Notes under the pieces: model-generated
Told to the model about the DNA's origin: nothing
What the model saw: only the letters and a program-made list of their open reading frames with translations
The model's database searches: none
Shown here: positions 51 to 2,259 of the stretch, piece by piece
Layout of the letters: each line of letters begins with the position of its first letter
Numbering within the stretch: position 1 is the stretch's first letter
Program-made: the position numbers and the translations under genes
Origin: an uncultured Clostridia bacterium
GTDB taxonomy: Bacteria; Bacillota; Peptococcia; Peptococcales; Peptococcaceae
Reading direction: 5' to 3'
DNA: 35,311 nucleotides
NCBI GenBank assembly: GCA_944391285.1
Contig: CALXSY010000019.1
Coordinates: forward strand, 1-35,311

Positions 51-944
51 TCAACCATTTGTTGTGACAGAGCCTTTAATTAAATCTTCAGCTACTCGAG
101 CAATATCGCCTTTAATATATATTTTCTGTTCATCGAGAAAATCCGGCAAAAATGCATCCTGCAAATTAACGCAAGCATAAGTCGCTTGAGGATTATTTCC
201 CACAAGTTGCCAAAAAGAATATTTAATAATCATGGGCGTATTGTCTCCGACACCTATCTCCCAAAAGAGTATATCCCCGTCTTTATAATTATGGATAAAC
301 TGGTCATAACGGTTTTTAGCCCTATACCAGCCTTCGTCCTGAACAAAAGTGCGGTCAGTGCGCAGGTTGAGCGTCATCGGTGCTCCGCAGAGAGGACAAT
401 AGGGGATCAGCTCACTGGCAATACGCATATCCTTTTGTTCTTTCAGCATTTTCAGCACAATTTCCTCGTTGTCATAGGTAATTTGCGAGCAGGGTTTGCT
501 GCATTGGAATAAACCGAAATCGCCCTGCATATAGTACAAGCGCTCTTTTTTGAAACCGGAGTTTTGAAAAAGATGGTCGACATTGGTCGTGATGACAAAA
601 TAATTTTTGCCTTCAACCAGTTCCAACAGCTGCTCATAAACCGGCTTTTGGGCTTTTTGATAACGATTGACATAGATACTCCGGCTCCACCATGCCCAAT
701 ACTCTTCCAAAGTAGGAAATTTGTAAAATCCGCCGGTATAAATATCTTTAATGCCGTATTTTTGTGCAAAGTCAGCAAAATTTTCTTCGAAACGCCTGCC
801 TTTATAGTTAAATCCGGCGGCAGTGGAAAGCCCTGCTCCGGCTCCGATTACAATCGCCTCTGCTTCTTCAATTCTCTGATAAAGCTGCTCAAGCTTCTTG
901 TAATAATCGTCGGTAGATTGCTTCGTCTGATTCTTTAAAGACAT
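51..944 (-). CDS. SirTM-class sirtuin, probable protein ADP-ribosyltransferase
   Basis: A 297-residue sirtuin. The NAD-binding GAGAGLS motif is at about residues 34-40 and the ITTNVDH block near 118-124. Two cysteine pairs (C148/C152 and C183/C186) look like the structural zinc site. The catalytic histidine of deacetylase sirtuins, expected just before the conserved glycine, is replaced by glutamine (MQGD, Q140). That Asn/Gln combination is the published hallmark of class M sirtuins (SirTM), which ADP-ribosylate a lipoylated GcvH-like carrier in Staphylococcus and Streptococcus. The ATG at 944 has a GAGGTG site nine bases upstream. The gene overlaps the end of the macrodomain gene by 56 bases, so the two are translationally linked. 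No GcvH-L or LplA2 gene is visible, but the operon may continue past the window edge. Class is secure; the substrate is inferred. Confidence 0.9.
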   Translation of the reverse strand: MSLKNQTKQSTDDYYKKLEQLYQRIEEAEAIVIGAGAGLSTAAGFNYKGRRFEENFADFAQKYGIKDIYTGGFYKFPTLEEYWAWWSRSIYVNRYQKAQKPVYEQLLELVEGKNYFVITTNVDHLFQNSGFKKERLYYMQGDFGLFQCSKPCSQITYDNEEIVLKMLKEQKDMRIASELIPYCPLCGAPMTLNLRTDRTFVQDEGWYRAKNRYDQFIHNYKDGDILFWEIGVGDNTPMIIKYSFWQLVGNNPQATYACVNLQDAFLPDFLDEQKIYIKGDIARVAEDLIKGSVTTNG

Positions 945-1662
945 TAAAAATCACCTCAATCGGTTTTTCTTTTTGGTACTCCCGCACCGTTTCAATGGCT
1001 ATTTTAGCCGCCTCTTCATTAGGGAAATGATATTCACCGGTAGAAATGCAGCAAAAAGCGATATTTTGACAATTATTTTGAACGGCAAGCTTTAAACACG
1101 AACGATAGCAATCAGCCAAATCCTTACGGTCTTTACCGCTCACTTCTCCGTATATAATCGGGCCTACTGTGTGAATGACAAAACGGGAAGGCAGATTAAA
1201 AGCGGGAGTAATCTTTGCCTGACCGCACTTTTCATTATGCCCTTGTTTTTTTATTATTTCAGCGCAAGCCAAGCGCAGCTGCACGCCGCTGTAGGTATGA
1301 ATACAATTATCTATACAGCCGTGATTAGGATAATAGCAGCCGGTCATTTGGCTGTTAGCAGCATTAACAATCGCATCAACCTTTAGACGGGTTATATCAC
1401 CGCGCCACAAATATATTCCTGCAGAAACGACCTTCAGCTGAGCCATATCCACTATGCCTTTCTCCACAGCCCGTTGCTTTAAATAAGCATCCTGCACTGC
1501 TAAAAACTCTTCAGAGATCTCCTTTGCTCGGCGTACATTCAATAACGCCCGCAAAAGCTTTCGCTGCTTTTCTTCGTCCTGAGGCAGAGCTATATCCTGA
1601 TAATCATTATTTTCTTTCAGCAAATATTCAATTAAATACTCCCTGCGTTCGCTTTGCTTCAT
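889..1662 (-). CDS. Zinc-dependent macrodomain ADP-ribosyl hydrolase (SirTM partner)
   Basis: A 257-residue protein with a helical N-terminal region (about 1-80) followed by a macrodomain. It carries the ADP-ribose-binding VNAAN motif (99-103) and, right after it, GCYYPNHGCIDN, in which C109, H114 and C116 match the zinc-binding signature of SirTM-linked macrodomains. VIHTVGP and the later STGEYHFP segment complete the fold. Its expected role is removal of the ADP-ribose mark added by the sirtuin encoded next. The likely start is the ATG at 1662, preceded by GAGGTG; a TTG twelve bases upstream lies before that site and would be an artefactual start. The gene comes first in the pair and overlaps the sirtuin gene by 56 bases. 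Confidence 0.9.
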   Translation of the reverse strand: MKQSERREYLIEYLLKENNDYQDIALPQDEEKQRKLLRALLNVRRAKEISEEFLAVQDAYLKQRAVEKGIVDMAQLKVVSAGIYLWRGDITRLKVDAIVNAANSQMTGCYYPNHGCIDNCIHTYSGVQLRLACAEIIKKQGHNEKCGQAKITPAFNLPSRFVIHTVGPIIYGEVSGKDRKDLADCYRSCLKLAVQNNCQNIAFCCISTGEYHFPNEEAAKIAIETVREYQKEKPIEVIFNVFKESDEAIYRRLLQEA

Positions 1663-1690: not shown

Positions 1691-1719
1691 GAAAAAATGC
1701 GATATTTACATATCGCATT
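1691..1719 (-). terminator. Intrinsic terminator after tRNA-Arg
   Basis: A perfect ten-base-pair stem (arms 1696-1705 and 1710-1719, loop TTAC) is followed on the minus strand by a run of T. It starts four bases after the tRNA 3' end and finishes 28 bases before the macrodomain start codon. Confidence 0.85.
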
Positions 1720-1722
1720 ATC

Positions 1723-1794
1723 TACGCCCGATTGGAATTGAACCAACGCACCCGGCTCCGGAGGCCGGTGCTCTATCCACTGAGCTACGGGCGC
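1723..1794 (-). tRNA. tRNA-Arg (anticodon CCG)
   Basis: On the minus strand the sequence folds as a cloverleaf. It has a seven-base acceptor stem starting GCGCCCG with a terminal G:U pair, TAGCTCAG at the D arm, a five-base anticodon stem CCGGC/GCCGG holding the loop CTCCGGA, and a GGTTCAATTCC T-arm. The anticodon is CCG, which reads the arginine codon CGG. The discriminator base is A and CCA is not encoded. It has its own promoter and terminator. Confidence 0.95.
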
Positions 1795-1860: not shown

Positions 1861-2259
1861 TTAGTTTTTCACTTTTTTATAGCCGCTTGCCATGACCATA
1901 GCTACCGGATTGCCCAAATCATCAACAATTTCAATCTGATAGCAGCAGGTTGTTCTGCCGTCTTTTAAACATTTTGCCTCGGCAACAATTTGACTGCCTT
2001 TAGCCGTGCCGTAAAAAGTGACAGTGCTGTTTAAAGTGACAGTGCCGGCTTGCTTCCAATTAGCCGCCACGGCAAAGGCGAAATCCGCCAAAACAAAAAT
2101 TGCACCGCCCATCACTCCGCCCATGGCATTTAAATGTTTAGGAGTGATATTCATCCTGCATTTGGCATAATTATCGTCAATTTTTTCGATATACGCCCCA
2201 TTTTCCACCGCAAATCTGTCATGAGAGAAAAACTCTCTTACTTCTTCTATATCCTTCAT
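1861..2259 (-). CDS. PaaI-family hotdog-fold thioesterase
   Basis: A 132-residue single hotdog domain. HLNAMGGVMGGAIFVLAD (42-59) is the central-helix motif of the PaaI/4-hydroxybenzoyl-CoA-type thioesterases, with D59 in the position of the catalytic acid; the usual histidine of the HGG element is methionine here (M50). These enzymes hydrolyse acyl-CoA thioesters, often aromatic or short chain; the substrate cannot be read from sequence. The ATG at 2259 has a GGAG site. The gene has its own promoter and is followed by the tRNA promoter, so it appears monocistronic. Family call is firm. Confidence 0.85.
   Translation of the reverse strand: MKDIEEVREFFSHDRFAVENGAYIEKIDDNYAKCRMNITPKHLNAMGGVMGGAIFVLADFAFAVAANWKQAGTVTLNSTVTFYGTAKGSQIVAEAKCLKDGRTTCCYQIEIVDDLGNPVAMVMASGYKKVKN

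Follow-up and report, generated by a model that had tools for sequence, protein, structure and literature searches.

A stand-alone SirTM and zinc-macrodomain gene pair in a Clostridia genome that appears to lack a lipoyl carrier and a lipoate ligase

Lipoylated GcvH-L is the sole characterised substrate of bacterial SirTMs that we found in the literature. The locus described here raises the question of what a SirTM and its zinc macrodomain (Zn-Macro) would act on in an organism without a lipoyl pathway, and such a combination in one organism is a genetic argument for another target. The stretch of DNA that was analysed (the window) comprises bases 1–35311 of contig C19, from a 1.70-Mb draft genome of 36 contigs with a completeness rating of 100%.

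The lone SirTM/Zn-Macro pair has already been published (Rack 2015, PMC4518038; Ariza 2024, PMC11490716), and pairs are known to occur alone, in extended operons, or fused (Ariza 2024, PMC11490716). According to the same study, the Zn-Macros of lone pairs and fusions that have been tested were unable to demodify lipoylated GcvH-L. MorMacro, which comes from a minimal operon, demodifies Glu/Asp-ADP-ribosylated PARP1 and not GcvH-L (PMC11490716). The sequence-only reading of this locus had treated the absence of GcvH-L and LplA2 as an anomaly. That view did not hold, as lone pairs are both published (PMC4518038, PMC11490716) and common, with at least 583 relatives.

The SirTM/Zn-Macro gene pair

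The Zn-Macro gene (positions 889–1662, minus strand) encodes a putative zinc-dependent protein-ADP-ribose hydrolase of 257 residues, the "eraser", which was assigned from family NF003163, PDB matches and motifs. The SirTM gene (positions 51–944, minus strand) encodes a class M sirtuin of 297 residues, a putative mono-ADP-ribosyltransferase or "writer", which was assigned from its family match, motifs and position in a tree. For both proteins the enzymatic activity is inferred from characterised homologues.

The best PDB match of the SirTM is 5a3a (5a3a/b/c; E = 1.1e-66), its sole close solved relative, which we take to be the S. pyogenes SirTM structure. The next match, the fungal fusion 8rsn, is weaker (E = 3.9e-20). 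In the alignment of 14 rows, Q140-G141 replaces the catalytic His-Gly and is invariant, which bears out the earlier remark that Gln stands in place of the catalytic His. The conserved active-site residues N121 and R195 are likewise invariant, as are V232-G233 and N235-T236-P237 of the GVGx[NT]TP motif, which reads GVGDNTP in the window protein. The QG dipeptide, the GVGx[NT]TP motif, the active-site Asn and Arg and the linked Zn-macrodomain gene together place the protein in the M class of sirtuins. In the tree it lies among the SirTMs of lone pairs, outside the extended-operon clade (support 100/100, two members).

The macrodomain passes the NCBIfam model NF003163, "protein-ADP-ribose hydrolase", with a score of 372 bits (cut-off 272). 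Its best PDB matches are 5kiv and 8rsl, and the closest solved zinc macrodomains are 5kiv, 8rsl, 8rsi and 8rsm. The VNAAN motif occupies residues 99–103 and is followed by the zinc motif C109-x4-H114-x-C116, all three residues of which are invariant in 19 aligned rows, so that the zinc signature reported from the sequence is confirmed. In the Dx3H of the catalytic loop (D118/H122), D118 is invariant and H122 nearly so over the same 19 rows. The positively charged GcvH-L-binding patch used for comparison consists of R175/R176 in SauMacro and of R172, K175 and R183 in SpyMacro. Comparing aligned residues only, the window macrodomain has I-I-Y-G at this patch versus Q-I-R-R in the S. aureus and R-I-T-K in the S. 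pyogenes protein, and the Aerococcus protein from an extended operon is also without the RR.

The two genes overlap out of frame by exactly 56 nt (positions 889–944, minus strand), as had been claimed. The SirTM ATG at position 944 is the sole start codon ahead of the conserved core; it falls within the macrodomain codons for F-N-V-F, and a ribosome-binding site, GAGGTGA, lies a few nucleotides before it inside the macrodomain gene. The macrodomain and SirTM are probably made from a single mRNA, on which the sirtuin start lies within the 3' end of the macrodomain gene. Upstream, as first described, a tRNA and a thioesterase take the place of GcvH-L and LplA2. These neighbours outside the module are a tRNA-Arg(CCG) gene (1723–1794, minus strand) and a gene for a PaaI-like hotdog thioesterase (1861–2259, minus strand). 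A terminator-like hairpin with a T tail (1696–1719, minus strand), as called by a consensus scan only, sits directly after the tRNA-Arg and 33 nt ahead of the macrodomain ATG; no consensus promoter was found in the gap between the tRNA gene and the pair.

To place this architecture in context, we used 80 named loci from a SirTM profile search. These are the closest of the at least 583 relatives and not a random sample. Flanks of up to 6 kb were fetched, and gene presence was scored by six-frame profile searches. A macrodomain is present in 74 of the 80 loci. Where both genes were called on one strand, the order is that of the window in 59 of 61 loci. Overlaps of 50 or 56 nt account for 37 of these 59. 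The remaining two (L033 and L044) have the sirtuin first, and in L040 the genes are separated by a gap of about 34 nt. The overlap is thus typical and not universal, and the claim that it implies strict coupling of writer and eraser was an over-reading. Together with the internal ribosome-binding site it is compatible with co-expression from a single transcript and is no proof of strict translational coupling.

The intact motifs and the conservation of the architecture speak for a functional writer/eraser pair. The alternative that the pair is a degraded remnant, which has lost its target and is now inactive or under relaxed constraint, would account for the absence of the usual partner genes of both kinds, described below, and for the SirTM branch length of 0.92 versus 0.44 for its nearest relative. 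It is nevertheless unlikely, because neither reading frame is interrupted, no family-invariant residue has been lost, and the overlap and the internal ribosome-binding site are preserved.

Lipoyl genes in the window genome and across the phylum

A genome-wide search found no GcvH in the 36 contigs of the window genome. No lipoate ligase or LplA2 was found there either; the single match to BPL_LplA_LipB is a BirA-type biotin ligase (TIGR00121, 128 bits, cut-off 83). The genome contains three Biotin_lipoyl matches only, which from reading the ORF sequences, rather than from family searches, were named as a pyruvate-carboxylase-type ORF, a biotin-carrier gene and an HlyD-like protein. The small biotin-carrier gene adjoins a biotin-carboxylase-like ORF. 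The organism therefore appears to have neither a lipoyl carrier nor a lipoate ligase. The pair is a lone SirTM/Zn-Macro pair, with no lipoyl genes upstream and none anywhere in the genome, its downstream side being the contig edge. The sequence-only reading had offered a different target or a carrier encoded elsewhere. The former is supported, whereas the latter is excluded within the assembly. Because the organism has no lipoylated GcvH-like carrier, nor an enzyme to lipoylate one, such a carrier is not expected to be the target.

In comparison with the published lone pairs (MorMacro, 8RSI, and the pairs of Enterococcus faecalis and Treponema pedis; PMC4518038, PMC11490716), the window shows the same proteins, motifs and operon adjacency and the same lack of lipoyl genes. 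There is no difference in kind; what the window adds is the absence of the lipoyl pathway from a whole genome. The extended operon of Staphylococcus, Streptococcus and Aerococcus consists of OYE, LLM, GcvH-L, Zn-Macro, SirTM and LplA2. Its Zn-Macro and SirTM are homologous to those of the window, but in the window no GcvH-L, LplA2, OYE or LLM adjoins the pair. Mfs1, a fungal macrodomain-SirTM fusion (8RSN), has the same two catalytic domains in a single polypeptide, unlike the two genes of the window.

A phylum sample of 398 genomes was compared for GcvH only; lipoate ligase and lipoyl domains were searched in the window genome alone. Adjacent Zn-Macro and SirTM genes occur in 16 of these genomes, a number that takes in two divergent pairs (G138 and G318), one pair cut short where its contig ends (G349) and a fragmentary copy (G183). 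GcvH is absent from 12 of the 16 genomes versus 106 of the 382 others (one-sided Fisher p = 1.7e-4, with shared ancestry uncontrolled beyond a family-level count). At that level, 9 of 13 pair-bearing families are GcvH-minus throughout. The enrichment of adjacent pairs in genomes without GcvH is a new observation.

Biotin carriers, whose fold is common to GcvH, are the sole swinging-arm carriers left in the genome, and the pair might modify one of them, either the pyruvate carboxylase domain or BCCP. We regard this as quite improbable. The SirTMs of S. aureus and S. pyogenes show absolute selectivity for lipoylated GcvH-L, with biotinylated BCCP among the proteins tested (PMC4518038), and no carrier gene recurs as a neighbour in the 80 related loci.

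The contig edge was also considered. Base 1 of the window is the end of contig C19, only 50 nt past the SirTM stop codon, and in the Aerococcus operon (L132) LplA2 directly follows SirTM. An extended operon with GcvH-L, LplA2 and oxidoreductase genes might on these grounds be hidden in an assembly gap past position 1. If both genes lay there, this would be an ordinary SirTM operon, as had been pointed out at the outset. The genome-wide search found neither, in a genome rated 100% complete. Moreover, the Aerococcus GcvH-L gene lies upstream of the macrodomain, where the window has the tRNA and the thioesterase. GcvH-L, LplA2 and the LLM oxidoreductase were found in 0 of the 80 related loci within flanks of up to 6 kb, while the Aerococcus control was recovered, and the window SirTM falls outside the extended-operon clade. 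A concealed extended operon is accordingly very improbable.

Redox neighbours of related loci and the proposed target

In place of lipoyl genes, the related loci frequently contain redox genes. A PNPOx-type split-barrel protein is encoded in 37 of the 80 loci, in 30 of them immediately upstream and on the same strand. These counts were made with the PNPOx part alone, since a 277-residue ORF (L117_6) otherwise bridged the PNPOx and macrodomain clusters. In most cases the PNPOx-type neighbour is a fusion with a two-cluster ferredoxin domain, and two CxxCxxCxxxC ferredoxin motifs are present in 33 of 49 PNPOx-matching six-frame ORFs; at the plasmid loci of Enterococcus casseliflavus (L128) and Treponema the PNPOx gene is without the ferredoxin part. 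In a second sample, the 16 pair genomes of the phylum survey, a PNPOx gene lies at most 2.5 kb from the pair in 7. HxlR regulators occur in 30 of the 80 loci, mostly upstream and divergent. Rrf2 is found in 11, an NAD(P)-binding protein in 10, nitroreductase in 9 and DUF1848 in 4. In the text that was searched, which left subscription papers and preprints outside its scope, we found nothing linking SirTM with PNPOx or redox operon genes. The thioesterase of the window and a 96-residue ORF were rejected as conserved partners, both being absent from all 80 related loci.

The Clostridia operon of PNPOx/ferredoxin, Zn-Macro and SirTM (L079, and L129 on a Roseburia plasmid) contains the same pair as the window, usually in the same order and with the same overlap of 50–56 nt. 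The window differs in having the tRNA and thioesterase upstream, and searches with PF01243 and with the A5 profile found no matching PNPOx gene in its genome (G000). The redox operon of the relatives is the more interesting lead, although the window itself is without it. The PNPOx-ferredoxin gene that recurs upstream in the relatives provides a concrete candidate substrate.

Taken together, we consider it probable that the window encodes a minimal, stand-alone SirTM/Zn-Macro module for reversible mono-ADP-ribosylation, whose target is not a lipoyl carrier and is likeliest a redox protein encoded elsewhere. SirTM would move ADP-ribose from NAD+ onto a residue of the target protein, and Zn-Macro would take it off again, with zinc serving as the Lewis acid. 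A redox protein is favoured because of the redox setting in the relatives, which parallels the OYE and LLM of the extended operon; flavoprotein genes are common to extended operons and to the loci of the relatives. The redox nature of the target is thus suggested by neighbours in relatives only. Because the window genome has no PNPOx gene, the target would have to be encoded elsewhere in the genome, and candidates are flavoproteins and Fe-S proteins or their regulators.

A wider reading can be put forward tentatively. Lone pairs may form an ADP-ribosylation system that is independent of lipoate and widespread among anaerobic gut Firmicutes, with a flavin or Fe-S redox protein as substrate (often the PNPOx-ferredoxin fusion one gene upstream) and with control by HxlR or Rrf2. 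On this view the system of staphylococci and streptococci, which acts on a lipoyl carrier, would be an offshoot. This generalisation is possible but doubtful.

Some sirtuins act in phage defence, and the writer/eraser layout resembles a toxin with its antidote. A role of the sirtuin as an anti-phage effector that consumes NAD, with the macrodomain as antidote, is nevertheless highly unlikely: no PADLOC model matches either protein, and in the relatives the pair is flanked by redox and regulatory genes, not by defence islands. The class M active site also fits use as a transferase (PMC4518038).

A radical SAM protein of the ACGX type is encoded in 10 of the 80 loci, and in the Roseburia relative it is the maturase of an ACGX system, beside a gene for an ACGX-repeat peptide. 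On this plasmid (Roseburia sp. 831b, L129:1731-5927), and in about 10 of the 80 loci, ACGX-repeat peptide, radical SAM maturase, nitroreductase, 4Fe-4S protein, Zn-Macro and SirTM occur together. A peptide-modification cluster is apparently tied here to the ADP-ribosylation pair; our search found no literature on ACGX with radical SAM.

Other sirtuin and macrodomain arrangements

Erasers without an adjacent writer were observed in genus g3 of the window's own family. In L018, L019, L020 and L022 the Zn-Macro gene lies start-to-stop with an EcsC-family gene (PF12787 in L018), and no sirtuin is present there. EcsC was rejected as a general partner, since it occurs in 0 of the 80 loci. The idea that these relatives have no sirtuin at all was also rejected, because divergent QG sirtuins are present elsewhere in them. 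Divergent QG-type sirtuins with no adjoining macrodomain were found in L137, L139 and L140 (genomes G002, G006 and G010), and the sirtuins from L137 and L139 cluster with the paired ones of G138 and G318.

The reverse case, a writer without a nearby eraser, is seen in Mesomycoplasma hyorhinis (L150:2577-7015), where LLM, a lipoyl carrier, SirTM, a lipoate ligase and a flavin oxidoreductase are encoded in an operon of the extended type and no macrodomain is annotated. In L135 (G001:C39) a gene for a flavodoxin-like FMN reductase precedes SirTM, again with no macrodomain beside it, and the Zn-Macro of that genome is located on another contig. On a Mesobacillus foraminis plasmid (L149:2883-6891), two tandem sirtuins, an HD-domain protein and a nicotinate phosphoribosyltransferase form an NAD-metabolism cluster. 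Finally, on a Lactiplantibacillus plantarum plasmid (L131:4995-7167) a long-branch sirtuin gene adjoins a gene for a cupin-domain protein, with no annotated macrodomain, and similar matches occur on further lactobacillus and pediococcus plasmids.
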